The notes under the pieces are model-generated. The model was not told the DNA's origin, did no database searches, and saw nothing but the letters and a program-made list of their open reading frames with translations. A program made the translations under genes and the position numbers. From contig JAHYJI010000011.1 in NCBI GenBank assembly GCA_019429145.1, forward strand, positions 1 to 33,984: a stretch of 33,984 nucleotides of DNA, in the 5' to 3' direction. Shown here one piece after another: positions 1-23,034 of the stretch (within the stretch, counting starts at the first letter, position 1; every line of letters starts with the position of its first letter). Source of the DNA: Coriobacteriia bacterium. GTDB lineage: Bacteria; Actinomycetota; Coriobacteriia; Anaerosomatales; SLCP01.

Positions 1-3000
1 TCGGGGAGAGTGTCGTGGTGTAGAAGACCGAGGCGCCGTCCTGATAGAGGCGGTAGGAGTGCATGCCCGAGCCGGTATCGCTGACCGCGTTCCACTTGAC
101 CGTGACCTTGCCCCACGCGTCACGCTCGAGCGTGACCACGGGCTTTGCGGGCGGGGTGGTGTCGAGAACGCTGATCGACACGGTGGCCGGCGGCGAGTAG
201 TGGGTACCGTCGTACGCCCGGTAGGTGAAGCTCGCCGCACCGAGGAAGCCTGCAGGCGGCGTGTAGGTGAAGGCGCCGTTGGCGTTCAAGGTGACCGTGC
301 CGGTCCCGCTCGCCGGTCCGCTCAGAAGGTGTGCGGTGATGGGGTCGCCATCGGCATCGGTATCGTTCGCGAGCACACCGGGCGCCGGGACGGAAAGTGC
401 GGTGTTGAACGGAGTCGTGAAGGAGTCGTTGACCGCGACCGGAGGGGTGTTGGTCGCCGTCTCGGCGGTCACCGAAAGACCGTAGTCTCCCACGCCATGC
501 TCGGTGTCGAACGCGTGCACCAGGATGCAGATGTTCATGTCGAACGGCGCGATCCATTCGATGCGTGAGTAGTAGTCCTCGCCGCCGTCATCGTCCTCGG
601 CGATAGGCACGTCGCCGCCGGAGAGGTAGAGGAAGAGGACGGTGTCGGAGCCCCACGGACCGATGTGACTCGTCTCGATCACGTACCTCATGCCTGCCTG
701 GACCGGGAAGCAGACCCAGTCCCGGTCGCCGGCCGGCCACAGTGTTCTCGACTGAGGCGGCGCACCGACGGTGATGCTACCGGCCTGACCCGGAGTGTCA
801 TCCGGCTCGTATGCGTCAGATCCGAGCGGTGCGAGGAGCTCGAGAGCGAAGTTGACGGCCAGCGTCGAGCTTCCGTTCCAGTAACCGTGCTCGAACTGCG
901 GAGTGTAGCCATCCGCCTCTACGTAGAACCGGTAGTCACCCGGCCCCCAATCCATCTGGTCATCGACGGCGTACGTGCCGGTGCCACTCGAGAACGCAGT
1001 TCCCGCCCAGAGGTAGTCTTCCAGGGCGTCGTCGTACCAGAATGCCATCACCCGGGCGTCCTCGAGCGGCGTGCCCGTACCAGCCTCGGTCACGGTGCCG
1101 GCCGCGATGGACGTCTGCGCGTCGAGCGCGAAGTTCACGACGTGAGGTGTCTCCCCGTCCCACGCGCGAGCCGCCGTTTCGGGGGCATACCCGGATGCCT
1201 GAGCATGGATCTCGTAGCCGCCCGAGCCGTAACCGAGGTCGTCGTAGACTTCGTACTCGCCCGCGCCGTCCGTGTACGCGAATCCGGCGAGCAGGTACTC
1301 CTCGGCTACGGCATCCCACCACAACGCCTCGACCCGGGCGCCCCCAACGGGGGCTGTGCTCCAGGCGTCACGAACGGTGCCCGTTGCCACCGGCGGTGGC
1401 GTCTCCAGTGCGAAGTTGAAGGAGAGCGTCGTCGTACCGTTCCAGTTCTCGGATCGCGTCTGCGGGAGGTACCCCTCGGCCTCGACGAAGAACTCGTACT
1501 CGCCCGGGCCGAGAAGCAGCGAGTCATAGAGCAGGTAGGTGCCGTCCGGTCCGGTACCCACGAAGCCGGCCCACGTCCACTCGCCCGCGTCGGTGTCGTA
1601 GCGCGTGGCCAGTATCCCGGCATCCTCGATCGGCCAACCGCTGTCGGAGTCTGTCACCATGCCCTGGACGAGCGGTGCGGCAGCCGTGAGCCGGGCGGTG
1701 ATATGGATCGGAGACCACCCGGGGCCGCCCCAGGTACCGAAGTGCTCTTGGGAGGCGTATCCGGCGGCTGACACGACGAACCGGTAGTCACCCGCCCCGT
1801 AGTCCTCCTCGTCGTAGACATCACACGTGCCCTGGGGCCCGGTGTGGCCCTCGCCACCCAACCTCCACTGAAGGTCGGCAGGGTCTTGCTGGAAGGCTTG
1901 CACCGTCGCGCCGTCCAACGGACCGCTGGTCGAACCGTCGATCACTGTCACGATCGCCACGGGCAGCACCGGCACCAAACGGTAGTTGATGTCGAGCGCG
2001 TCCTCGACATACCACACCCCGTCCTGCCAGCGGGTGTAGTAGCCCTCAGCCGAGCAGGAGAAGCGGTACTCGCCGCCACCGCGCCCCATCTCGTCGTAGA
2101 CCGCGTACGTTCCGTCCTTGTGCGAGTAGGCATCTCCGGCCCAGAGATACTCGCCTGCGCCCTCGTGCCACTCCGCCTCGATGCGGGCCCCCTCGACCGG
2201 GACGGGGAAGGAGGAGTCGATCGTGTCGACCATGCCGCGGGCGATCGGCGGCATCGGGTACAGGGCGACGCTGATGTCGAGCGAATCGAAGCCGTCCCAG
2301 TAGCCGACCCCGCCTCCGGAGAAGTAACCCTCCGCCCGCACCTCGAAACGGTACTCGCTCATCTCGTTGCCGGACTCTTCATGGCGGTCGTACTCGTCGT
2401 AGACGGCGTACATGCCGTCAGGCGTGGTCGTCGTCACTCCGCTCAGCAGATACTCCTGAGTATCCGGATCGATCCAGTAGGCCGTCACCTCGGCCCCGGC
2501 TATACCCAGCCCGGTCTCAACGTCACTCACCAGCCCGACCGCCACCGGCGGTCTGCGATCCAGCCTGATCTCCAGCACGAGCGGCGTGCCCCCGGCCCAC
2601 CACACCCACTCCCTGAGATCGGTCAGGTATCCGGGTGCGGACGTGCGAAACTGGAAGAACCCGGAGCCGGCGCCGAGCGTGTCGTAAACGGCGAAGACGC
2701 CGTCCGCATCGGCGAACCCATCTCCGACAGGAATCTGCAGACCTCCCGTCGGAGGCGTCAGAGCGACCTCGACCCGCGCTCCCTCGACCGGCAACAGCGT
2801 GACCGAATCGATGACCTTTCCGGTGGCAAGCACGGACAAGCGGGTCATTCTGATCTCCGGCTGGAGCGGACCGTAGCCGTCCCACTCGTCGACGTACTCC
2901 TCCGACAGGTAGCCGTCGGCCTCCGCAACGAACTTGTAGTCCCCGGATCCATAGTTGAACGTGTCACGGAAGGTGAACAGGCCTTCTTCGTCTGTCGTCT

Positions 3001-4072
3001 CGGTGCCGATGAGGCCCCACTCGTTGGCGCCGAGGTATCGGTACGCACTGACGCGGGCGCCTTCGATGCGCTCGTCGGCGTCAGCATCGATCACCACGCC
3101 GTGGGCGATGGTGCCGGTCGCCACGAGGACGAAGCTCTCGGATACCGGTCCTTCACCTCCCCAGCTGGTCGTCCTCTCAGCGGGGAGGAAGCCGTCTGCA
3201 AAGACCCGCAGAACGTATACTCCCGACCCGACGGTCCCCTGGCCGTACAGGTCGTAGGAGCCGTTCGCGCGACTGATGGCCTCGCCTGCGTAGGTGTACT
3301 CACCCGCTGTGGGATTCACCAACCACCACGCCTCGATCCGCGCACCGGGCAGCAGATCACGCCCCCCGCGGATCTCTCCCCGGAAGAGGTGCGGTAACCC
3401 GACCAGCCAGTAGTCGTGTGAGATGGGAGACGCGCCGCTCCAGTACTCCTCATGATCCTGGGGCTCGAAACCTTGCGCTTCGACGACGAACCGGTAGGTC
3501 CCCGCACCGAACGCGTACTCGTCGTAGAGTGTATAAACCCCCGCACCGTCCGTGACCGCCTCGCCCGCCGAGAACCACTCTTCGGACACCGGCTCCTTCC
3601 ACAAGGCGCGAACTTCAGCGCCCGCCACCGTGAGCGGGGCGCCGACGCCTGCATACACCTTTCCAGTAGCGACAGGCTTCGCAGCGATGAGCGCGAAGTC
3701 GAGCGTGAGCGGGTCGACCCCGTTCCAGTACTCCACGCGCCACTGGGTCACGTAGCCATACGCGCGCACGACGAACGTGTAGTCCCGCTGGCCGTAGCCG
3801 AGCTGGTCATAGATGACGTACAGACCCGCAGAGTCAGTCACATCATCGCCGGACCACAGCCACTCATCAAAGTCCGGGTCGTACCAGGATGCCGACACCG
3901 TCGCGCCCTCGATGCGTGAGGGAGTGCCCGGCCCGGACACCACACCGCTCGCGATGACCGGGGTGTCTGCAGCAATCGCTGCCGTTGCGGGTCCGAGGAG
4001 CACGGCCAGGGTCACCACTGCGGCCAACCAGGCAAGCGGCCGGACTCTCAGACCGGCGTGTGCGTGATGCAT
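1..4072 (-). CDS. Secreted multi-repeat surface protein (3' end beyond window)
   Basis: The frame is open from ATG at 4072 to the left edge (at least 1357 codons); I read it through and found no stop. The C-terminus lies outside the window. Residues 1-32 are a Sec signal peptide (basic start, hydrophobic core, ending near ATAAIAA). Residues ~40-1080 are eleven repeats of about 95 residues, each opening with a GxV turn and carrying a YxVYD...YRFxVxAxGY core and a YWxG motif. They resemble carboxypeptidase-regulatory-like beta-sandwich domains. Residues ~1080-1205 start with DAYEPDDTPGQA, typical of bacterial pre-peptidase C-terminal (PPC) domains. Residues ~1205-1300 carry VLANDTDADGDP and GAFTYTPPAGF, typical of Ig/cadherin-like tandem domains. 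A fibronectin III-like stretch begins near 1302. No catalytic domain is visible. A surface, adhesive or matrix role is inferred. It lies 24 nt behind a lipoprotein gene, with a GGGGAG ribosome site. Confidence 0.88.
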   Translation of the reverse strand, partial: MHHAHAGLRVRPLAWLAAVVTLAVLLGPATAAIAADTPVIASGVVSGPGTPSRIEGATVSASWYDPDFDEWLWSGDDVTDSAGLYVIYDQLGYGQRDYTFVVRAYGYVTQWRVEYWNGVDPLTLDFALIAAKPVATGKVYAGVGAPLTVAGAEVRALWKEPVSEEWFSAGEAVTDGAGVYTLYDEYAFGAGTYRFVVEAQGFEPQDHEEYWSGASPISHDYWLVGLPHLFRGEIRGGRDLLPGARIEAWWLVNPTAGEYTYAGEAISRANGSYDLYGQGTVGSGVYVLRVFADGFLPAERTTSWGGEGPVSESFVLVATGTIAHGVVIDADADERIEGARVSAYRYLGANEWGLIGTETTDEEGLFTFRDTFNYGSGDYKFVAEADGYLSEEYVDEWDGYGPLQPEIRMTRLSVLATGKVIDSVTLLPVEGARVEVALTPPTGGLQIPVGDGFADADGVFAVYDTLGAGSGFFQFRTSAPGYLTDLREWVWWAGGTPLVLEIRLDRRPPVAVGLVSDVETGLGIAGAEVTAYWIDPDTQEYLLSGVTTTTPDGMYAVYDEYDRHEESGNEMSEYRFEVRAEGYFSGGGVGYWDGFDSLDISVALYPMPPIARGMVDTIDSSFPVPVEGARIEAEWHEGAGEYLWAGDAYSHKDGTYAVYDEMGRGGGEYRFSCSAEGYYTRWQDGVWYVEDALDINYRLVPVLPVAIVTVIDGSTSGPLDGATVQAFQQDPADLQWRLGGEGHTGPQGTCDVYDEEDYGAGDYRFVVSAAGYASQEHFGTWGGPGWSPIHITARLTAAAPLVQGMVTDSDSGWPIEDAGILATRYDTDAGEWTWAGFVGTGPDGTYLLYDSLLLGPGEYEFFVEAEGYLPQTRSENWNGTTTLSFNFALETPPPVATGTVRDAWSTAPVGGARVEALWWDAVAEEYLLAGFAYTDGAGEYEVYDDLGYGSGGYEIHAQASGYAPETAARAWDGETPHVVNFALDAQTSIAAGTVTEAGTGTPLEDARVMAFWYDDALEDYLWAGTAFSSGTGTYAVDDQMDWGPGDYRFYVEADGYTPQFEHGYWNGSSTLAVNFALELLAPLGSDAYEPDDTPGQAGSITVGAPPQSRTLWPAGDRDWVCFPVQAGMRYVIETSHIGPWGSDTVLFLYLSGGDVPIAEDDDGGEDYYSRIEWIAPFDMNICILVHAFDTEHGVGDYGLSVTAETATNTPPVAVNDSFTTPFNTALSVPAPGVLANDTDADGDPITAHLLSGPASGTGTVTLNANGAFTYTPPAGFLGAASFTYRAYDGTHYSPPATVSISVLDTTPPAKPVVTLERDAWGKVTVKWNAVSDTGSGMHSYRLYQDGASVFYTTTLSP
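838..3957 (-). repeat. Eleven tandem ~285-bp coding repeats
   Basis: Within the secreted protein gene, eleven units begin near 3957, 3672, 3390, 3115, 2827, 2543, 2245, 1959, 1670, 1390 and 1106, giving a period of about 285 bp (95 residues). Each unit starts with an (A/V)xGxV motif such as ATGKV, ARGMV or AAGTV. A GAxVxA strand, a WxxxxxEYxxAG segment, the YxVYD turn and the YRFxVxAxGY strand follow. The copies are similar in pattern but clearly diverged at both nucleotide and protein level, so the array is old rather than freshly expanded. Unit 3 is shorter and has an altered opening (FRGEIRGG). Confidence 0.85.
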
Positions 4073-4096
4073 GACTCCCCCCATCATTGCCCCCGC

Positions 4097-4624
4097 CTAC
4101 GGTTCCGTCGCGGGTGTCACATCCTGGAGAACGAGCACGATCCGGTCCCCCTGCATCCGGGTCACCACTACTCCGCTGTAGCGGCCACCCGCCTTCACCA
4201 CCTGGTCGCCGAGTATGAACACGACGTTGCGTCCTGTGAGATCGGGAACCCGGCCGTCCTGAGCGCGAGGCTCGGCAGCAGAGACCAGTCCGACGATGCT
4301 CGGGCCGTAGGAGGAGGGGCCGATCCCGTACGGTTCGAACACGACTTCGATCTCGAGTCCCTCGTCATACGAGTCGGGTGAGAGCGCCCAGAGCGAACGA
4401 TCCGGGGGAGCGCTGAGCGGCTCGAGAGACACTCCCGGAGCGGCAGGTGTGGCGGGGGCATCGGAGGGTGGAGGGGCCGGCGTCTGAGTTGCCTGTGCAG
4501 AGGCAGGGGCGGGCGGCGATTGACCGACATCGTTCACAGCACCGCTGTCACAACCGACCGCGGCGACTGCGACGACAAGACCCAGGAACGCGAGAACCAG
4601 GGTCTTCCCAGCACGACTCGCCAT
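4097..4624 (-). CDS. Putative lipoprotein with PilP/GspC-like C-terminal motif
   Basis: This 175-residue protein starts at ATG 4624, behind a GAGGGG ribosome site seven bases upstream. A longer frame to 4750 exists, but it would bury the signal peptide. Residues 1-25 form a lipoprotein signal with a lipobox ending AAVGC, so Cys25 should be lipidated. Residues ~28-75 are a Pro/Ala-rich linker. The C-terminal third (about 120-175) contains FILGDQVVKAGG, then GVVVTRMQGDRIVLVL. This looks like the short beta domain of PilP/GspC-type secretion and pilus proteins; the match is by eye and weak. It ends 24 nt before the multi-repeat secreted protein and is probably cotranscribed with it. The pair could be a surface protein and a small envelope partner, but that link rests only on position. 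Confidence 0.72.
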   Translation of the reverse strand: MASRAGKTLVLAFLGLVVAVAAVGCDSGAVNDVGQSPPAPASAQATQTPAPPPSDAPATPAAPGVSLEPLSAPPDRSLWALSPDSYDEGLEIEVVFEPYGIGPSSYGPSIVGLVSAAEPRAQDGRVPDLTGRNVVFILGDQVVKAGGRYSGVVVTRMQGDRIVLVLQDVTPATEP

Positions 4625-4929
4625 GTGTATGCCCCTCGCGAAACGAGCACCCATGCCCGTCCCGGGAGCCGCGCGCACTCCCAGGGCTACTTCCGGATAC
4701 CCGCCGGAGCAGAATCCAAAACGCGTGGCGTTCCCGTCGCATGGCGGCACGCGTTACGTTTGCCTTTTTCACGGGTAAGACGCCGAGTAGACGACGGGGG
4801 GAATCGGCCCCGGATGTAGCGCGAGCGCGCATCTTCAGAAGAGCTCATCAGACGCGCAAGTGGAAGTGCGATCGGACGGGCCCGTCGAGGCATCCGAGCA
4901 GCCTGAGACCCACGAGCCGAGGGGTTCTC
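4625..4929. other. Divergent intergenic region
   Basis: This 305-bp gap separates the leftward lipoprotein/repeat-protein genes from the rightward giant gene pair, so it must hold both promoters. Frames run through it on both strands, but they lack protein-like composition and ribosome sites. The only clear structure is an imperfect inverted repeat at 4720-4755 flanked by an A-rich run on the left and a T-rich run (tgcctttttc) on the right. I could not settle on a convincing -35/-10 pair in either direction. Confidence 0.6.
4720..4755. promoter_or_regulatory. Inverted repeat in divergent promoter region
   Basis: The arms are AACGCGTGGCG (4720-4730) and CGGCACGCGTT (4745-4755), complementary except for one internal position, with a 14-base loop. 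AAAA lies just left and a T-rich stretch begins about six bases to the right. It could be an operator for a dimeric regulator serving both divergent units, or a hairpin in one of the leaders. The sequence alone cannot decide. Confidence 0.4.
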
Positions 4930-7900
4930 ATGGGGCGCACTACGCTCTCTCACCGGGCATTCCGCCACAACCGTCCAGCTCGCCCCCCCTCGCATGACGA
5001 ACACTCTGTCGAGCGCTTCACCTCCGACATCTCCAGCGACGCGCTGACAATCACGAGGCGTCAGATGGTCACGTTCGCTGGCACTGTAGCTCTCGCCTCC
5101 TCGGCGGGTGTCAAGGCGGCGACCGCATCACTCAGCCCCACGGAGATCGTCGCGGACCGCCGTCGGCTGCGTGCGGTCGTTGCCGGCCGAACGTTCGAGC
5201 TCGACACGCAGCTCTTCGGAGGCTCACCGCATCTCGTTGTGACTCGCACCGCGTCTGCCGTCACAGCGGCGCTGAAGTCGGCAACCTACCCGGGCACCGA
5301 CATCCCCGCCGACCTCGACCTGCACTTCGAGTCACTCGGCGGCAGCACGCGGCTGCGCATTCGCTCCTCCAGCGGAGGGTTCGATGCGACGGTGCCGCTC
5401 CTCGCCTGGCTCGAAGGGCGCGCAACGGCGCGCTCGCGCTTGAACCTCGCGCGGGCGAAGAGCGAGCTGAGTGACGGTCGCATGCTGCGCTTCAGGGGCA
5501 GCGCTCAGGCAACGCTCCACCCAGATCTCACTCTCGACCTCCTGGGAACCGACATCGTGAGCCTGACGGGCTCCGGTGTCTCGCTGGTCGGTAGCGAAGC
5601 CCACATCTGGCTTGCTTCGGCCTCGGCTCCTACCCTCTTCACGCACAGGATCAAGCGGCGCACGTTCATACAGATACGCGGGAAGAACCACGAGTGGAAC
5701 GTCTCGGGCGTGACAACGCCCGCAGGCAGCAGCGTTGCTTTCGATCCGGACTCGTTCGACCAGGCGACGATAGAGGCCGCACAGACGTTGGCCGGACGTC
5801 GGCTCGCCATCGTGAGCTTCGAGAATTCCCATGAGACCGGTGCTGCCCTCCTGAAGCTTGCATCCGGGGCCTCGGGGGGACCAGCGATGCTACCCCTCCG
5901 CAATCCCCGTTACGCGTTCGTCTGCGGCGACCACGACCGCTTCTCGCTCTCGGCCGATGTGGCAGATGCTACGTCCTGGCTCGAGCAGCCCGGCCACAGC
6001 CTGCTGCTCGGCAGGGATACGGACAGCCCCGAGGTAGTCATGCAGGGCTGGGGGGGAACCGCCGAGCAGGTCGAGGGGAAGGTCGAGGTGCTCGGCGTTG
6101 CGGTGCCGATCGAGGGCGTGATCGCAAGCCCGCTGATGTTCCCCTCGGCGCACGCGCCCGCAACCGACCAGAGCGTATCGCTGAGCGGCGGCACGGAGAC
6201 GGACACCCTCGCACCGCAGACCCTCTCGCTCGAAGCCGGCCTGCTGTCGTGGCTCGCCCCGCTGCCGATCTACTTCGCGCTCGATGCGGCCTCGATCACC
6301 CTGACCCGGCCGGAGGACATGCTCACCGTCAAGCTCGAGTTCTACAACCTGCGGCTCCTGGTCGACCTCGAAGTACCGACGCTCTTCCGGCGCGTCGCCG
6401 CGAACCCGTCCTACCTCGTCGTCGAACTCCCCCCGCAGGCACTTCTCGAGCAGGCGTACTACGCTGAGACAGGTACCGCCTCGGCAGCGATGTCGAGCTT
6501 CCTCAACCTGTTGTGGCTCATCAATCCGAAGACTCCTCCGATCCAGGCGCGGATCGCCGAACCGACCAGGCTCGCATTCCGCATACCGGACAGCGTGCTC
6601 TCGGAAGGCATCCCCTACACACTCGAGGGGCTCCTCAACTGGACCCGCTACTCCAACAGCGTCGCTCCCTGGGCACAGGAGACGCCCCAGCAGGTGGCCC
6701 CCGGATCTGGTTCGTTCGGTGCGCTTGTCGCGTCCAACGCCCGCCCGCCCAAGCACGGCACGCACTTCCCGCTCGTGGCGCCGGAGACATCGATCGAGGC
6801 TCCGTGGGGACTCTACCTCTCGCCCTCGGACAATCGCGAGTACTGGTCGCACCGGATCGACCCGCTGGAGCGTGACGGGGTTACCGAGCTCTGGCATACG
6901 ACTCTTACCGGCCGCAGGCGCTGGCAGGCCTGGGGCTGGGGCACGTATCAGCCTGGCGTCCGCGCGGTGTGGGCACGCCACTACTCCACTTCATCGGGTC
7001 GCCTGAACGATGTGCCGGACCTATTCCGGAACAGCTTCACCACGGACGTCGACGATCAGGCAGGCTACGTCAATCGATGGGCACTCGTCGACATCACCGC
7101 GCGATACGGGCACCCGCGCGTAACTGCCGAGCGACTGACACTCACCTCGCTCGGAGCATGGCTGGACCTCAGGGGACAGTGGCCGGTGACGGACTACGCG
7201 GCAGCCGGAGAGTACATCGCTACGGCTCTGGAGGCCTGGACCCACCGGGCCACCATGGGACGCGACCAATTCGTACGCATCGTCAAGGCGGGGCGCCTCT
7301 TCCCCTTCGGTAACCGCGCGTCGCACGTGACCATCACCGAGCGCAAGTTCCAGGAAGCGCCCGACGGCAAGCGGACAGCCTACCTGATACAACGCTCCTT
7401 CATCATCGTGCGCGAACCCGACAAGTCGTACTCGCTGAGCGACACGGGTCAGGGACCGGTCTACCGCGCATTTCCCTTCAAGCGCGTCACATTCAAGACC
7501 CGCGTGACTCCGGACCTCGCCAATCCCTCGACCAATCGTGTGTACACCGCCGACAAGTCCTGGTGGCCGAGACTGCTCTCGACCGGCGGGGACTTCTTGT
7601 TCGAGTACGCCGCAACCGACTGGGACGGCCGCACGACTGACCTCCGTTCGCCGCTCATCTTCGTTCCCGAGGAGTACGCGACGAAGTGGCCCGGCATCAA
7701 CCCCGCCGACGCAGCGGCCGAGATCGATGCGTGCGATGCCGCGATGCTCCAGGTGCAGATAGCCGTGAACGGCCAGAAGGTTGCCTACAGCGAGCCGCTG
7801 CCTGCCTCGGCCACCGAGGACCGGCGAGTGCTCGAGACCCAGATAATCCGTTTCGGAGCGCTCAGCGCCGTGATGACCTCGTGGGCGGCCGCATACGGCA

Positions 7901-9432
7901 AGATCTACTTCTACCCGCGGTTGCACCGCGCCAACGTGCGCCTAGAGGACGTCGAGGCGCTCATGAACGCCGAGTCGGGGACGTGGATCCGGCTCTGGGG
8001 CGGGTACCTCGGCAACGGCTACACGGGCATCAACGCCGAGGGGCGCGTATTCGCTGAGATTTCCGACTCGGGCGCGTTTGGGGACTCCGGAGATGACTCC
8101 GCATCGTCTCTCGCGCTCAACATCTCACCCGAGCGCGCGGGCGGTTTCGCGACGCCGAATCTCTCGGTCACGGGACTTTCCGCCACCGGTGGCGCATTCG
8201 GTGGCACGCCGGAGAACTACGGCTCGGGCAGCCTGAAGGCGGATGACTTCTTCGCGAACGCGAACCCCACGCTCTTCGGGGACATCACGCTCCTCGACAT
8301 CCTGAGCCTGGCAAGCGGTCAGGGCATCAGCCTCGGCCCCAAGGATGTGCCCCTCTTCAACGACTACATCGTCAAGCGCGACGGCGAGACTTTGGCACGC
8401 TACGAATACTCGTGGAACACCGAGAAGTTCGGCAACAAGTCGGCGATCTTCAAACCCAGCAGTTCCCCGAAGACCCGGCTCGAGCTGTTGGCCTTCCTCG
8501 AGAAGAACCTCTCGCGCATAGACGCTCCGCCTTCCTCGGGCGTGAACGGCAGCCTCGTCAACTTCACGCTCTCGCTCTTCGACATCATCGACGTCGAGTT
8601 CACGAGCTTCGGCTTCTCGATCGACACCGGCGGAGACGTCGACGTCACGCCGAAGATCAAGGACATCCGCTTCAGTGGCGCGCTGGAGTTCGTCAATCAG
8701 CTGCGCGAGATCATGAACTTCACCGGCGACGACGGCGGGTTCGCAATCGATATCAACGCCGAGGGCCTCAGCGCCATCGTAACGATCGCGCTTCCCGACG
8801 TCGCAGTGGGCGTCTTCAGCCTGAAGAACATGTCGATCAGCGCCGGGTTCATATTGCCGTTTACCGGCGAGCCGCTTCGCTTCCCGTTCTCGTTCTGCAA
8901 GCCGGAAAGCCCCTTTGAACTCGCGGTCTCGGGCTTTGGCGGTGGCGGCTACTTCATCGTGGAACTCCAGGCGAGCGACACGAACGCCATCGCACTGCTG
9001 GAACTCTCCCTCGAATTCGGTGTATGCGCATCCGTCACCCTGGCAGGCATCGCGAGCGGCAGCGTGGAGATCAAGGGCGGCGTCACACTGCGCATCGCGG
9101 GCGAGGAGCTGTCGTTCACAGCGTTCTTCCGCATGTCCGGGCGGCTCGACATCCTCGGCATCATCAAGGTGTCGGTGCTCTTCAGTCTGACTCTGACGTA
9201 CATGAACAAGAGCGCCGCACTCTCGGCGGGCGAAGGCAACGGCCAGAATGCCATCCTCATCGGCGAGGCATCGCTCTCCATCGACATCGAGATCCTCTTC
9301 TTCTCGTTCAGCGTCACGCTCACGGTCAAGAAGAAGTTCGACGGCGACGACCCGAGGTTCGGTGACTGGATGCTCGAAGACGAGTGGGCGACCTACTGCG
9401 AAGCGTTCGGTCCGGCGACGGTTGGAGCGTGA
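4930..9432 (+). CDS. Giant exported protein of unknown function (Tat signal)
   Basis: A 1500-residue protein. ATG 4930 is chosen because GAGGGG lies five bases upstream and the N-terminus then makes sense; the frame runs open further upstream, but that part has no protein character. A long polar n-region is followed by TRRQMVTFAG (twin arginines at 43-44), a hydrophobic stretch to about residue 62, and an Ala-rich cleavage region (VKAATA). This fits a Tat signal. The rest has no motif I can name. The C-terminal third (about 1170-1480) is dense in alternating hydrophobic beta strands with GFGGGGYF, LEFG and LFFSFSVTLTVKKKF, and ends near WATYCEAF. I recall similar endings in large uncharacterised bacterial proteins, without a known role. 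No enzyme signature or membrane helix is evident apart from the signal. Its stop overlaps the start of the next giant gene, implying joint production. Confidence 0.82.
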   Translation: MGRTTLSHRAFRHNRPARPPSHDEHSVERFTSDISSDALTITRRQMVTFAGTVALASSAGVKAATASLSPTEIVADRRRLRAVVAGRTFELDTQLFGGSPHLVVTRTASAVTAALKSATYPGTDIPADLDLHFESLGGSTRLRIRSSSGGFDATVPLLAWLEGRATARSRLNLARAKSELSDGRMLRFRGSAQATLHPDLTLDLLGTDIVSLTGSGVSLVGSEAHIWLASASAPTLFTHRIKRRTFIQIRGKNHEWNVSGVTTPAGSSVAFDPDSFDQATIEAAQTLAGRRLAIVSFENSHETGAALLKLASGASGGPAMLPLRNPRYAFVCGDHDRFSLSADVADATSWLEQPGHSLLLGRDTDSPEVVMQGWGGTAEQVEGKVEVLGVAVPIEGVIASPLMFPSAHAPATDQSVSLSGGTETDTLAPQTLSLEAGLLSWLAPLPIYFALDAASITLTRPEDMLTVKLEFYNLRLLVDLEVPTLFRRVAANPSYLVVELPPQALLEQAYYAETGTASAAMSSFLNLLWLINPKTPPIQARIAEPTRLAFRIPDSVLSEGIPYTLEGLLNWTRYSNSVAPWAQETPQQVAPGSGSFGALVASNARPPKHGTHFPLVAPETSIEAPWGLYLSPSDNREYWSHRIDPLERDGVTELWHTTLTGRRRWQAWGWGTYQPGVRAVWARHYSTSSGRLNDVPDLFRNSFTTDVDDQAGYVNRWALVDITARYGHPRVTAERLTLTSLGAWLDLRGQWPVTDYAAAGEYIATALEAWTHRATMGRDQFVRIVKAGRLFPFGNRASHVTITERKFQEAPDGKRTAYLIQRSFIIVREPDKSYSLSDTGQGPVYRAFPFKRVTFKTRVTPDLANPSTNRVYTADKSWWPRLLSTGGDFLFEYAATDWDGRTTDLRSPLIFVPEEYATKWPGINPADAAAEIDACDAAMLQVQIAVNGQKVAYSEPLPASATEDRRVLETQIIRFGALSAVMTSWAAAYGKIYFYPRLHRANVRLEDVEALMNAESGTWIRLWGGYLGNGYTGINAEGRVFAEISDSGAFGDSGDDSASSLALNISPERAGGFATPNLSVTGLSATGGAFGGTPENYGSGSLKADDFFANANPTLFGDITLLDILSLASGQGISLGPKDVPLFNDYIVKRDGETLARYEYSWNTEKFGNKSAIFKPSSSPKTRLELLAFLEKNLSRIDAPPSSGVNGSLVNFTLSLFDIIDVEFTSFGFSIDTGGDVDVTPKIKDIRFSGALEFVNQLREIMNFTGDDGGFAIDINAEGLSAIVTIALPDVAVGVFSLKNMSISAGFILPFTGEPLRFPFSFCKPESPFELAVSGFGGGGYFIVELQASDTNAIALLELSLEFGVCASVTLAGIASGSVEIKGGVTLRIAGEELSFTAFFRMSGRLDILGIIKVSVLFSLTLTYMNKSAALSAGEGNGQNAILIGEASLSIDIEILFFSFSVTLTVKKKFDGDDPRFGDWMLEDEWATYCEAFGPATVGA

Positions 9433-12400
9433 TGACGATGGCAACCAAGCAAACCGTCATGTGGACCGCGCTTCCCAACGGCGTGCGCACCGGTAAGGAC
9501 GGCACGCAGTATCTGAGGCTGGCTGCGTTCATGTCGCCGCGGCTGACGAGCACCTCGACGCCGCCACTGACGCTCGGCATGTGGCCGGACTTCGCGACCG
9601 GCGATGAGGCGGTCAACTGGGCATCGACGGTAGCGGGGCTCACGTTTCACCTCGAGTTCCGCCGGAGAACAGACGGGACCGTCTACCGGGTTCCCGCACT
9701 GGCAAGCCGCCGCACCTCGGCGAGCAACCCGTCACTGTGGTCGGAGCTCTTCGGCCCCGGCACACCTGTGGACGGCTACGTCCCGCCGGACCTGAAGAAC
9801 GTCCGGGTGAACTCGTTCGCGGTGAAGGAAGCCTCGGTCGCGCTACGCGACCACGTCGCAGCGATCGCGAGCGCCCCGTCACTCCTGCACCGGGTCCCCG
9901 TTCCCGAGGAGATCATCAATCCGGGCGGCATGATCGACAACCCGCTCACGGCTCACCTCGCCGGGCAGATCCAGTCTGCCGGGACCATGAACCTCATGGC
10001 CGCGCCGGCACCGTCCGGGCCCACCCTCTACGAGCAGTACACGGCGTTCCATCGTCCGTACATGACTGCCGAGACCTGGAGGTCGCGCACGCCCGCGGAG
10101 CTGGCGGCGGAACGCGAGACGGACTTCCACAAGTCGATGACCGCGCTCGGCAACTACCCGGCGCTGCTCCCTCTGCTCGGTATCGTCGTGAACTTGGAGG
10201 TCACGCTCACACCGGCCGTGCTCGCCGAGCTCAACGGCGCCTCGAGGGTGCGTGTGCGGCCGCAGTGGCCGGCAGGGGGATCCACCGTGACACGCGAGGA
10301 TGCCTACCCGTGGACGGCCATCGCTTCCACCGGCAAGTCGACCACCAGTGGCTACCGGGTGACGAGCTTCCGCGCGGCGCCCAAGACCGGAGACTTGAAA
10401 GACGGGTACCTGGTCGTGCGCGATACGTCGGATGACGGCGCCAACGACCCCGTGAGCATCGCCAACATCGACATGGACCTGGCCCTCGGCAAGATGTTCG
10501 CGAGGTTCGACGGCATCGTCCAGCAGATCAACGCACGCGTGCTTCCCCAGACCATGTCGACCATGTCGATGCCGGAGGTGCAATCCACCCAGACGTCCGC
10601 GCTGCGCGATGACATCCAGGCTGGGTTGCCGACTCTCGGCCAGCCGACGATCGCGCTCGCCGTCAACAGAGCCGGAGAGAAACTCGCAGGCTTGCTCTCC
10701 ACCACCCAGGTGAAGAACAAAGCCCTCAGGGACGGCAACCACACGCAGATCGTGCACAACGCCGAGGAGCTGGTGCGCGGATACCGCGTGGACGTGTGGG
10801 ACAGCGTCACAAAGGTATGGCACCCGTTGTGCGAGCGGATCGGAACGTACCGGCTCGGAGACACCGAACTCACCTGGAACGGCGACAATCCCGAGCTTGC
10901 CGACGAAGCCTGGGTACAGCTTGCTACCCAGTCGGATCCGGCGGACGATTCCCTCGCCCCACAGGAGATGCGCCTGAGCGAGGAGATGTTCTCCTGGAAC
11001 GGCTGGAGCCTCGTGATCGAGCGCCCCGGCGCCGCGCTTGCCGAGAGCGGCAACGGCGACGCGACGAACACGATGCGTCGTACCTACATCGGTCCGGACG
11101 GCGAGACCCACCCTCTCGGGGAGTTCGACAACCCGGGCCTGCCGCTTGCGACCTCGTTCCGTGTGCGCCCGGGAACGCTACCGCGGCTGCGCTTCGGGAC
11201 GACCTACCGCTTCAGAGCCCGTGCGGTCGACCTGGCGGGCAACAGCGTGCCGTTCGAGAAGGGAAGCCCGACCGACACGCCCGGCGGAGCGACCGACAAG
11301 CTCACGACCGTCACGCGCGCGCTCGTGCACAAGCGCTACGAGGCCGTGAAGCCGCCCGTCGTCGTCATCCGACATGACCTGGTGCAGGGCGAGTCACCGC
11401 ATCACCTCGTGGTGACGAGCAACTACAACACCGCACCCGGCGCGCCCACCTCCCGGCACATCTGCCCACCCCGGACCTCGTTCACGATGTCGGAGGCCCA
11501 CGGCGCATTCGACCAAACCGCCGTCGGCCGCCCGATGGATGCCTCGCGATACGGGCTGATCAAGTCGAGAGACGCCTGGGACTTCCCTCACAACGATCTG
11601 CCCCCGACCGACCCTGCTCACGGCCGCCAGCTACCGCTGGTCGAGATCCCCAAGCCGCTTCCGTACCTCGCCGACGTCCCGTCCCGTGGCGCCTCCTTCA
11701 CGGATCTTCCCGGGCAGAAGGACAAGACCGGGAAGGTCAACTACGTCGGCAAGGACCCGGTGCTCGGGAGCACCTCGGTCAAGCTGCCTGATGACACGAC
11801 CGTCGTGACCGGTGCGTTCCGCATACCGTTCGACGTCGGAACGAGCGATGACGACGGTGACCGGCGCCCGTTCAAGCTCATCGTGAGCGGCGTCGAGGGC
11901 ACCGACCCACGACTCCCTGTGAAGACCTCGCAGACCGCCCCGACGTGGAACGCGACGAAGCGGGAACTCCGCGTTGCGCTTCCCAAGGCCGAGCAGGTCG
12001 AGGCCGAGGTGAGCTCGTTCGTCAACGCCGACGACCTCAGCGTCTTCGGCACGTACCAGTGGGGGGTTGCGAAGAGTATTCTCCAGAACAAACCGCTGTT
12101 GTTCTCCTCGCTCATCTCCACCTCGAGTCTCGCCTCGTCGGTCATGACCCCCAAGACGTTCGCGCTTCCACTGCTGTCGAAGGACACGCTGGATGCGATC
12201 ACGAACGCGGTGATCGACCTGAGCGTCCTGGGCAACAACTGGACGATCACGCCGGCCGAGAAGCTCACGCTCGTGCACGCGGTCCAGCAGCCGATGATCG
12301 CGCCGAACCTGACGGGTGACATGAAGGTCTACGGGCGCAAGCAGGGCGACACCGCCGCGACCCTGGTGGACTGGGTGCAGATCCACGGCAAGAGCACCGC

Positions 12401-13718
12401 GCGTATCGCGATGAACGCCAAGTGGACCGAGGAGATCGACGATCCCGCCGACGGCCCGCCCAAGTGGGGAGATACCGCCGTGGAGCGCAGCGGCCAGGCG
12501 TTCGACCTTGCCGTCGGCCGGGAGGACACCGTGGCACTCTCGCTGATGCAGGCGCCGCCTCCCGGGGTCACGCTACCGGTCACTCCGCTCACGACGAACC
12601 GGGATGCGAAGGCGCAGCGCCACTCGTTCGGCGACACCAAGCACCGCTACATCAAGTACAGCCTTGTCGCGTCGTCGAGGTTCCAGAAGTACTTCCCCTC
12701 CGAGGCGGAGACGACGCGCAGCGGTAACACCAAGCAACTACACATCCCGAGTTCGGCGCGGCCTGTGCGGCCCGACGTCGATCTCGTGATACCCGCGTTC
12801 AAGTGGACGCGGAGCCTCTCAGGCACCTCGAGCCAGCGCGGAGGCGGACGATTGCGCGTGTACCTGAAGCGTCCCTGGTTTAGCTCGGGTGACGACGAGA
12901 AGCTTGCCGTACTGCTCTGGCAGTCGAGCAATCCTATCGGCGGCTACGACAAGCTGCGGCCCTACGTCACCGAGTGGGGCAACGACCCGCTCTACCGCAG
13001 TAGGGGCTCGCTTCCAAACAACTATCCGACGCCGGCGAACTTCGAGGACTACTCCTCGCTTCACTACTTCAAGTACCCTGCCGAGCTATCCGGCGGCGCC
13101 CTCTACGTCACCGTGCTCGTGTACGACGTCGACTTCGACGAGGAGACCGACCGCTGGTTCGCGGACATCACCGTCAAGCAGGGCAACGCATACTTCCCCT
13201 TCGTCAAGCTTGCGCTTGCACGCTACCAGCGCTGGGCGCTCACGAACCTTCAGCTCTCGCCAACGGTCGAGGTGGATGCCGTGCAACTCACTCCGGACCG
13301 CACAGCCAGCGTGATGTGGGCCCAAAACGCACTCTCGTTCACGGTCAACGTCAACGGGCGCTCGTACGAGGAGGCGCGCTCCGGTTACGGGCCGCGGATG
13401 ACGATGTCGGTCGAGCGGCGCCAGGATGATGGATTCGCGTGGCGCCCCTATCAGCTTCCGGGGCAGACCGTGACCGAATTCGAGATGGAGACGTACCAGC
13501 CGAGCATGTTGCACGTCGGCCAGGCGCGCACGTACTGGAGGCGGACCGTGGCCTTGCGCAGTGCCCTGGACGCTTCAGACTACCGCCTCGTGATCCGCGA
13601 GTACGAGCGGCACTTCACGGGGGCGACCATGCCCACCATCTCCGGAACCGGTCAGGTCGTGGGGGCGCGGCCGGTCTACGTCGACGTGTTGCCGCTCAAG
13701 CCGCCGCTGCAGATGTAG
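9432..13718 (+). CDS. Giant partner protein of unknown function
   Basis: A 1428-residue protein starting at ATG 9432, which shares one base with the preceding TGA (TGATG), with GGAG just upstream. ATG 9438 is a possible alternative. No signal peptide, lipobox or transmembrane helix is visible. Around residues 440-520 it has GYRVDVWDS and WHPLCERIGTYR. Around 575-610 it has RLRFGTTYRFRARAVDLAGNS, which resembles a fibronectin-type strand pattern. Towards the C-terminus come RVYLKRPWFSSGDDEKLAVLL, FPFVKLALARYQ and VDAVQLTPDR. These blocks look like those of large, functionally unassigned bacterial proteins I have seen before, but this is memory, not a search. The overlap with the upstream Tat-signal gene suggests a stoichiometric partner. 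A hairpin follows 11 bases after the stop. Confidence 0.8.
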   Translation: MTMATKQTVMWTALPNGVRTGKDGTQYLRLAAFMSPRLTSTSTPPLTLGMWPDFATGDEAVNWASTVAGLTFHLEFRRRTDGTVYRVPALASRRTSASNPSLWSELFGPGTPVDGYVPPDLKNVRVNSFAVKEASVALRDHVAAIASAPSLLHRVPVPEEIINPGGMIDNPLTAHLAGQIQSAGTMNLMAAPAPSGPTLYEQYTAFHRPYMTAETWRSRTPAELAAERETDFHKSMTALGNYPALLPLLGIVVNLEVTLTPAVLAELNGASRVRVRPQWPAGGSTVTREDAYPWTAIASTGKSTTSGYRVTSFRAAPKTGDLKDGYLVVRDTSDDGANDPVSIANIDMDLALGKMFARFDGIVQQINARVLPQTMSTMSMPEVQSTQTSALRDDIQAGLPTLGQPTIALAVNRAGEKLAGLLSTTQVKNKALRDGNHTQIVHNAEELVRGYRVDVWDSVTKVWHPLCERIGTYRLGDTELTWNGDNPELADEAWVQLATQSDPADDSLAPQEMRLSEEMFSWNGWSLVIERPGAALAESGNGDATNTMRRTYIGPDGETHPLGEFDNPGLPLATSFRVRPGTLPRLRFGTTYRFRARAVDLAGNSVPFEKGSPTDTPGGATDKLTTVTRALVHKRYEAVKPPVVVIRHDLVQGESPHHLVVTSNYNTAPGAPTSRHICPPRTSFTMSEAHGAFDQTAVGRPMDASRYGLIKSRDAWDFPHNDLPPTDPAHGRQLPLVEIPKPLPYLADVPSRGASFTDLPGQKDKTGKVNYVGKDPVLGSTSVKLPDDTTVVTGAFRIPFDVGTSDDDGDRRPFKLIVSGVEGTDPRLPVKTSQTAPTWNATKRELRVALPKAEQVEAEVSSFVNADDLSVFGTYQWGVAKSILQNKPLLFSSLISTSSLASSVMTPKTFALPLLSKDTLDAITNAVIDLSVLGNNWTITPAEKLTLVHAVQQPMIAPNLTGDMKVYGRKQGDTAATLVDWVQIHGKSTARIAMNAKWTEEIDDPADGPPKWGDTAVERSGQAFDLAVGREDTVALSLMQAPPPGVTLPVTPLTTNRDAKAQRHSFGDTKHRYIKYSLVASSRFQKYFPSEAETTRSGNTKQLHIPSSARPVRPDVDLVIPAFKWTRSLSGTSSQRGGGRLRVYLKRPWFSSGDDEKLAVLLWQSSNPIGGYDKLRPYVTEWGNDPLYRSRGSLPNNYPTPANFEDYSSLHYFKYPAELSGGALYVTVLVYDVDFDEETDRWFADITVKQGNAYFPFVKLALARYQRWALTNLQLSPTVEVDAVQLTPDRTASVMWAQNALSFTVNVNGRSYEEARSGYGPRMTMSVERRQDDGFAWRPYQLPGQTVTEFEMETYQPSMLHVGQARTYWRRTVALRSALDASDYRLVIREYERHFTGATMPTISGTGQVVGARPVYVDVLPLKPPLQM

Positions 13719-13729
13719 AAGCGCAGGAG

Positions 13730-13773
13730 AGCAGATGCCCTGTCGCGACCGACGGGGCGACAGGGCATCTGCT
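13730..13773. terminator. Perfect 17-bp hairpin between convergent genes
   Basis: The arms AGCAGATGCCCTGTCGC (13730-13746) and its exact reverse complement (13757-13773) flank a 10-base loop. It lies between the stop of the giant gene pair (13718) and the stop of rho (13796), where a bidirectional terminator is expected. Neither side carries a run of T, so it does not fit the classical intrinsic terminator. It may terminate without a U-tract or protect the two mRNA 3' ends. Confidence 0.7.
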
Positions 13774-13795
13774 TCAGATACGTCAGGGGCAGCTC

Positions 13796-15145
13796 CTACA
13801 GATCCACCCCGTTGCTCTTCTCGTTGGCCTTCTTGGCCATCCGGTGCAGAAACTCCTGGTTGCTCGGCACCTGGCGTAGGCCCTTGATGAGCATCTCGAT
13901 AGCACGCTCGGAACTGTCCACACCGTGCAGAATCCGTCGTAGGCCCCAGACGAACGGTGCCTCCATCGGATCGAGAAGCAGCTCCTCCTTGCGGGTGCCG
14001 CTGGTGACCACGTCGATGGCCGGGAAGATGCGGCGGTCGGCGAGCCTGCGGTCGAGCCTGAGCTCCATGTTGCCGGTGCCCTTGAACTCCTCGAAGATCA
14101 CCTCGTCCATCTTCGAGCCGGTCTCAACCAGCGCGGTCGCCATGATGGTGAGCGAGCCGCCGAACTCGATGTTGCGGGCCGCACCGAAGAAGCGCTTGGG
14201 CGGGTAGAGCGCGGTCGAGTCAACGCCGCCAGACAGGATGCGTCCGCTGGCGGGAGTCGCGAGGTTGTACGCGCGCGCGAGGCGGGTGATCGAGTCGAGC
14301 AGGATGACGACGTCGTACCCGCTCTCGACGAGGCGCTTGGCGCGCTCCATCAGGAGTTCGGCCACGGCGATGTGGTTCTCGCTCGGCATGTCGAAGGTCG
14401 AGGAGACGACCTCGCCCTTGATCGAGCGCTCCATGTCGGTGACTTCCTCGGGCCGCTCGTCGACGAGCAGGCACATGAGGTGGACGTCGGGGTCGTTAGC
14501 CGAGATTGATGCGGCGATCTCCTTGAGGATGGTGGTCTTGCCGGCCTTGGGCGGCGAGACGATGAGCCCGCGCTGCCCCTTGCCGATGGGGGCCACCAGA
14601 TCGATGATGCGGGCGGTGAGCTCGTCCTTGCTAGTCTCTAGCCGGAAGCGCTCGTCGGGGTAGACCGGCGTCAGGTCGCGGAAGTGCTTGCGCCCGCGCG
14701 CCTGCTCCGGGCTCAGCCCGTTGACCGTGTCGATGCGCTGGAGGGCCGCGTACTTCTCGTTGTCTTTCGGTGGCCGCACCTGCCCGCGGATCAGGTCGCC
14801 GCGGCGCAGCTCGCCCCGGCGGATCTGGGACATCGAGCAGTAGACATCCGAATCACCCGGGAGGTAACCGGCCGTGCGGATGAAGCCGTAGCCCTCGGGA
14901 AGGACATCGAGGATGCCTTTGATCTCGACGAATCCCTCGGCCTTGACCTTGGCTTCGAGGACGGCATCGATGAACTCGTCCTTCTTCTTGAGCGCCTTGA
15001 CGTCGAGGCCAAGCTCGGCCGCCATCTCCCGGAGCTCGACGACCTTCTTCGGCTCGAGGTCGGCGCGGGTGATCGACGGCTGAGGCGGCTGCTGGGAAGG
15101 ACCGCCGCCGCCTCGGCGGCCGCGCTTACGAGGTCGTGCGCTCAT
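13796..15145 (-). CDS. rho: Transcription termination factor Rho
   Basis: Rho is the hexameric RNA helicase that ends transcription at untranslated C-rich RNA. The 449-residue reading starts at ATG 15145, overlapping the stop of the transaldolase gene (ATGA). Residues 1-23 form a short basic, Gly-rich tail. Residues ~28-70 are the helical Rho_N domain (VVELREMAAELGLDVK), and ~72-145 the cold-shock-like RNA-binding domain with GYGFIR. The RecA-type ATPase core carries the Walker A SPPKAGKTT (197-205), Walker B VVILLDSITRLARAYN and the SGGVDSTALYPPKRFFGAARN segment. Length and motifs are those of a complete Rho, without the long N-terminal insertion of many actinobacteria. It is the last gene of a run that starts at sppA. 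The usual downstream rpmE-prfA are absent. Confidence 0.97.
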   Translation of the reverse strand: MSARPRKRGRRGGGGPSQQPPQPSITRADLEPKKVVELREMAAELGLDVKALKKKDEFIDAVLEAKVKAEGFVEIKGILDVLPEGYGFIRTAGYLPGDSDVYCSMSQIRRGELRRGDLIRGQVRPPKDNEKYAALQRIDTVNGLSPEQARGRKHFRDLTPVYPDERFRLETSKDELTARIIDLVAPIGKGQRGLIVSPPKAGKTTILKEIAASISANDPDVHLMCLLVDERPEEVTDMERSIKGEVVSSTFDMPSENHIAVAELLMERAKRLVESGYDVVILLDSITRLARAYNLATPASGRILSGGVDSTALYPPKRFFGAARNIEFGGSLTIMATALVETGSKMDEVIFEEFKGTGNMELRLDRRLADRRIFPAIDVVTSGTRKEELLLDPMEAPFVWGLRRILHGVDSSERAIEMLIKGLRQVPSNQEFLHRMAKKANEKSNGVDL

Positions 15146-22389: not shown

Positions 22390-23034
22390 ATGAGAGGGAG
22401 ACATGCCGCGATACGAGCGGGAGCGGTGGGACTGATCGCGCTGGGCGCGCTGCTGCCCGCGTACGCGTTCGCCGCCTACAAGATGGTGCCGACGACCTGC
22501 ACGAGCAGCTGTGCCAAGCAACAGACCACCTACTGGTGCGGCCCTGCCAGCACGCACTTCGTGCTGCACTCGCAAGGCCGCAGTGTCACGCAATCGACGC
22601 TGGCACGTGAACTCAAGGGGTATTCCGGAGCTACTGCCATAGAGAACATCCCCGCGGTGCTCAATAAGTACAAGAAGGTGTCGATCAAGTACGTGCGTGT
22701 CCCCCGCACCTACATCACGAGCATCTCGCTCGTCCGGAGCATCATCACCTATGCGGTGGACCGCAAGTCCTGCGCTATCCCCTGCGTCAACCCGTACCCG
22801 TACACGAACAGCGCGGGCTACTACTCTCCGGGACTCCCGACCTACAGCGGCACAAAGGCCGGCGGTCACTATGTGGCGATCCGCGGGTACGACATCTCCT
22901 CGACACGAGACTACGTGTACTACTTCGATCCCCACTACAACTCCGCCCACTACGGGACACGGCGCGCGAGCGTCTCGGCCATGGCCCGTTCGATCCTGGT
23001 GAAGAACTATGGCAGCCAGGGTGTCGTGTACTGA
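22390..23034 (+). CDS. Secreted C39-like cysteine peptidase
   Basis: A 214-residue exported protein with the look of a peptidase_C39-like papain-fold enzyme. ATG 22390 follows a GGGAGG site. The signal peptide covers residues 1-28 (hydrophobic AVGLIALGALLPAYAFA). The catalytic set is visible: Gln44/Gln45 before Cys50 in QQTTYWCGPAST, His160 in GGHYVAIRGY, and Asp180 in YYFDPH. Additional cysteines at 37, 41, 128 and 132 could form disulfides outside the cell. There is no ABC transporter next to it, so it is unlikely to be a bacteriocin-export leader peptidase; a free secreted hydrolase is more likely. It starts a plus-strand group of exported proteins and overlaps the next gene by 26 bases. 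Confidence 0.88.
   Translation: MRGRHAAIRAGAVGLIALGALLPAYAFAAYKMVPTTCTSSCAKQQTTYWCGPASTHFVLHSQGRSVTQSTLARELKGYSGATAIENIPAVLNKYKKVSIKYVRVPRTYITSISLVRSIITYAVDRKSCAIPCVNPYPYTNSAGYYSPGLPTYSGTKAGGHYVAIRGYDISSTRDYVYYFDPHYNSAHYGTRRASVSAMARSILVKNYGSQGVVY

Follow-up and report, generated by a model that had tools for sequence, protein, structure and literature searches.

Tat hitchhiker complexes such as Ni-Fe hydrogenase, formate dehydrogenase and PaoABC are encoded by adjacent genes, and only one of their subunits bears a twin-arginine signal; export of a partner without a signal in such a complex is an established Tat mechanism (PMC10924467; PMC4273604). The same layout is found in two very large genes, here called A and B, in the genome of a Coriobacteriia bacterium (contig JAHYJI010000011.1; the 33,984 nucleotides analyzed are referred to as the window). 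An earlier note, made from the letters of this DNA, had described them as genes of 1500 and 1428 codons that overlap by one base. These coordinates were confirmed (Table 1): A and B share one base in TGATG at 9430-9434. The start of A at 4930 is supported by its good ribosome-binding site. The true start of B, in turn, may be its second ATG, at 9438 (MATKQTVMWTALP; 5 nt after the stop of A), since in 85 loci the family opens directly with M..Q..WT.LP.G; the starts of the homologues align at this ATG. With a divergent small gene upstream of A and the convergent rho downstream of B, A and B stand alone as a probable two-gene operon.

Table 1. Features of the A-B locus (positions in the window)
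Feature	Positions	Strand	Basis or remark
Probable ribosome-binding site of gene A, GAGGGG	4919..4924	+	sequence
Gene A	4930..9432	+	1500 aa plus TGA; no known domain; conserved family
Twin-arginine (Tat) type signal of A	5047..5124	+	sequence; RR at residues 43-44, then hydrophobic stretch
N-terminal part of A, about residues 70-439	5137..6246	+	homologue starts; absent from many homologues
Core of A, about residues 440-1140	6247..8349	+	alignment; model, mostly confident
C-terminal amphipathic beta meander of A, strands between residues 1279 and 1470	8764..9339	+	model; two-residue hydropathy alternation
Probable ribosome-binding site of gene B, TTGGAG, inside A	9422..9427	+	sequence
Gene B	9432..13718	+	1428 aa plus stop (1426 aa from ATG 9438); no signal peptide
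Probable terminator, perfect 15-bp inverted repeat, between B and convergent rho	13731..13772		fold z = -6.25, computed on 86 nt (13715-13800)
Synteny boundary with same-genus genomes; A and B on inserted side	13795..13798		DNA match ends just past 3' end of rho

The earlier note could name no domain in either protein, and the match to a characterized family that might have contradicted it was sought by sequence, profile and fold searches and not obtained. Neither A nor B matched anything in Pfam, NCBIfam or the PDB at E<10, and profiles built from 70 and 81 homologues found no significant PDB chain. Searches of their relatives against the family libraries returned sub-threshold Tat-signal and chance matches only, and neither protein showed a domain for which a ligand or an activity is known; a known enzyme or domain was rejected by all three kinds of search. 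We also rejected a known anti-phage defence system, as no PADLOC model matched A or B at E<1, and a phage origin, as no relative was present in 50,697 phage records or in a scan of viral contigs with B as the query. Just two matches, both weak, came from PHROGs (E 0.44 and E 0.011); the second of these is an FN3-like segment of B, RFRARAVDLAGN, matching phage central tail fibre J. Shared ancestry of A and B was rejected as well (hhalign probability 0.4%, E 0.16). A literature search, of incomplete coverage and run without locus-tag queries, found no publication on the pair. Within the libraries and literature searched, the A-B pair is undescribed, with no recognizable family, fold or described pair.

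We scanned 84,980 species genomes with the B alignment, obtained 295 relatives and kept the best 80 loci, which span 12 named phyla (Actinomycetota, Armatimonadota, Acidobacteriota, Aminicenantota, Bacteroidota, Balneolota, Chlorobiota, Chloroflexota, Bacillota, Pseudomonadota, Thermodesulfobacteriota and Krumholzibacteriota). Among these best 80 of 295 relatives, 77 loci could be tested, and every one of the 77 has A as the immediate upstream neighbor of B, in the same orientation; the contigs of the other three begin inside B. In a further co-occurrence test, the A and B profiles were each searched separately in every genome. A was found in 11 of 347 genomes of the window's phylum and B in the identical 11; in the phylum to which locus L033, a Saccharicenans bin, belongs, 237 genomes were searched and both occurred in the same nine, two of which (G467 and G469) had turned up before in the B scan. 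Genome sets would be identical by chance with a probability of about 1e-20 for the first sample and about 1e-16 for the second. When the class was sampled, relatives of A and B were adjacent in two genomes, and two more A genes stop at contig ends. Order and strand never vary, and with start codons picked by rule the A-B spacing has a median of 16 nt and is at most 33 nt in 72 of 85 loci. Pairwise distances of A and of B correlate with r = 0.94, a value inflated by shared ancestry. Neither clustering of flanking ORFs nor a Pfam tally of the 131 nearest neighbors revealed a conserved third gene, and a third partner was rejected: the neighbors are generic regulators and transporters, plus lineage-specific synteny in Aminicenantes and Marinifilum. 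The other result that might have contradicted the earlier note, homologues of A and B seldom being neighbors, was not seen either. A and B are an obligate, undescribed module, and the conservation of the pair proposed in the earlier note extends more widely than it had claimed.

The Tat-type signal that the same note had read on A also holds. Its twin arginine lies in TITRRQMVTFAGTVALASSAG (residues 40-60; TRRQMV, then TFAGTVALAS) and is aligned in all five order-level A sequences. Under a rule that requires RR-x-phi followed by an uncharged hydrophobic stretch, 33 of the 64 complete A genes carry a Tat-like signal (32 by the rule, and L072 by eye), against a background of 105 of 1472 long control ORFs from the same loci. 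Because about half of the family has no recognizable Tat signal, export is not needed everywhere. The signal occurs in the window's order, Aminicenantota, Armatimonadota, Chloroflexota, Marinifilum and the giant rhizobial forms, and all four distant giant A proteins examined have it. It belongs to A only: B is without a signal in 85 loci, and the three B frames that satisfy the rule are unconvincing, as their matches precede the start codon or are internal. This genome encodes TatC (E 7.9e-53), and each of the 17 genomes tested gave a TatC family match, which in one case was weak and lay at the end of a contig. On plasmid pC of Sinorhizobium meliloti, a 55-aa TatA-family gene (L023:25631-25798) directly follows B, an arrangement established for this plasmid rather than for the family at large.

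Structure prediction, proposed in the earlier note as a check, was carried through for each protein separately; it gave models of pLDDT 81-82, both usable, and no known fold. The model of A (residues 440-1500; many A homologues begin near residue 450) has a pLDDT of 81.9 and a pTM of 0.70, and that of B (229-1428) a pLDDT of 80.9 and a pTM of 0.67. Fold searches returned no known fold covering A or B. For A, Foldseek gave weak matches to porins, LptD, MTP and P47, and comparison with viral models gave porin-like matches, neither leading to a fold assignment; B, whose model contains Ig/FN3-like beads, matched Ig/FN3 chains only, with low TM-scores. The C-terminal meander of A shows a clear strand periodicity: nine successive strands alternate by 2.5-5.2 hydropathy units (mean over 70 homologues), while alternation in the strands of B is mostly below 3. 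Because these nine strands alternate so strongly, the model points to a C-terminal sheet of A with one strongly hydrophobic face. Strong amphipathic strands occur too in barrels and sandwiches without lipid ligands. Across phyla, at about 30% identity, B has 44 polar positions with conservation of 95% or more, which points to a single task shared by B homologues. All sequence blocks quoted in the earlier note were found in A or B, and RPWFSSGDDEKLAVLL and FPFVKLALARYQ are strongly conserved across phyla.

We suggest that A and B would be two obligate parts of one molecular module, which would fold in the cytoplasm and associate there; a physical complex of the two is probable. In this genome, and in the roughly half of the family in which A has a Tat signal, the folded complex would then be exported by the Tat translocase, with the signal-less B hitchhiking on A. 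We give such co-export an even chance; at 1500 plus 1428 aa, the complex would be an unusually large Tat cargo. B would serve as a scaffold containing Ig/FN3-like beads, placed outside the cell or, in lineages without a signal, in the cytoplasm. More tentatively, the hydrophobic face of the C-terminal sheet of A could contact lipid, a membrane or another hydrophobic ligand.

The A-B pair appears to have moved between phyla, probably on plasmids and islands. Several large plasmids carry it, and a tblastn search of plasmids showed the two genes side by side in Cupriavidus, Diaphorobacter, Rhizobium and Streptomyces. Distant giant forms, with A of about 3050-3310 aa, occur in Sinorhizobium, Ruegeria, Agrobacterium and Rhizobium. 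In plasmid pRlX2 of Rhizobium ruizarguesonis (L017:14938-19180), gene A is broken up into two ORFs that lie in different frames, probably by a frameshift. The tree mixes phyla, placing Bradyrhizobium with Acidobacteriaceae, Rhodoblastus with Acidobacteria, and an Oscillospiraceae bin inside Pseudomonadota; single cases of this kind are no proof of transfer, as bins may hold foreign contigs.

In this genome, the evidence for transfer is more direct, and the location of the pair is accessory. Three genomes of the same genus are without A-B, and their rho region has 86-93% DNA identity to the window up to 13795-13797, at the boundary listed in Table 1. The DNA after rho is common to all three relatives; here it is found on another contig, C43, at 95-96% identity from C43:3826, and the first 3.8 kb of C43 has no match to it. 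Because the relatives' post-rho DNA sits on C43, outside the window, at least 17 kb including A and B appear to have been inserted next to rho, provided that both contig ends belong to one insertion; the alternative is a rearrangement beside rho. The inserted side that carries A and B also encodes, within the window, a giant surface protein (2-4087, minus strand) with CarboxypepD_reg repeats and cadherin/Big_9 domains; it is incomplete and has at least 1362 aa. The other probable island end (C43; L170:1-3770) encodes a protein that resembles, by eye, cell-wall-binding repeat 2 proteins. The window further holds a putative small lipoprotein gene (4097-4750, minus strand), with no Pfam match and no relatives in six genomes from this genus and family, and a gene for a probably secreted C39-like peptidase family protein (22390-23034, plus strand; Peptidase_C39_2, E 1.5e-11).

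Patchy distribution with transfer, carriage on plasmids and the island location beside rho would also be expected of a membrane-active, two-part competition factor, with A and B secreted or released by lysis, the sheet of A inserting into the membrane of rivals, and the genes spreading by transfer on islands and plasmids. The amphipathic strands of A and its weak Foldseek matches to porin barrels fit such a factor as well. However, no immunity-like third gene is conserved beside the pair, A and B have no similarity to toxin families in Pfam or NCBIfam, and B is conserved throughout, without a variable toxic end; we consider this explanation unlikely. It is likewise improbable that A and B build a cell-surface structure or adhesin, forming a big assembly with Ig-like beads outside the cell, as other surface proteins of the island do: the Ig/FN3-like matches of B and the presence of the CarboxypepD_reg/cadherin protein and the cell-wall-binding-repeat-like protein on the same island agree with it, but A and B have no cell-wall anchor or binding domain, some lineages are without any signal, and very strong conservation of polar residues across phyla is unusual for adhesins. 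A cytoplasmic module that coats or handles hydrophobic material inside the cell, its Tat signal being secondary and export added in some lineages, would account for the 31 of 64 complete A genes without the signal and for the approximately seven state changes needed on the tree, but classic Tat signals recur in many separate branches, so that loss is as likely as gain, and we regard this as very unlikely.

The reading that we prefer, an obligate A-B complex with Tat co-export where A has the signal and hydrophobic contact by A, has in its entirety about equal chances of being right or wrong. A broader generalization is doubtful: A-B would represent a previously undescribed class of giant two-protein machines, spread over at least 12 phyla and mobile on plasmids and islands, in which a folded complex of about 310 kDa is exported by Tat via one signal and the sheet of A, hydrophobic on one side, handles lipid or other hydrophobic matter. 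Two genes that stay together wherever this could be tested, in distant phyla, and that are transferred, must do something specific.

Among known systems, bridge-like and AsmA/TULIP lipid carriers and the microsomal triglyceride transfer protein resemble A in having a series of long strands with one hydrophobic face, as predicted for A, and MTP and P47 are among its weak Foldseek matches. However, the TM-scores of A with these targets are low, at 0.05 to 0.10, with no sequence or profile match and no membrane anchor; we do not assign A to the bridge-like, AsmA or TULIP carriers. Outer-membrane beta-barrels (porins, LptD) share with A a meander of long amphipathic strands and are among its best Foldseek matches, but these have TM-scores of about 0.1-0.3, the pair is present in monoderm Streptomyces, and the signal of A is of the Tat type, not Sec; we therefore rejected this class as well. 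With phage central tail fibre J and other FN3 chains, B shares one short FN3-like segment, whereas no phage or viral relative of A-B was found. The Tat hitchhiker complexes share their layout with A-B, as B, itself without a signal, is always encoded beside A. In contrast to them, A-B has no detected cofactor motif or redox domain, half of its family is without the signal, and it is far larger. It is of interest for the way in which two giant proteins may join in one complex, and for the capacity of the Tat pathway to export a folded complex of such size via one signal.
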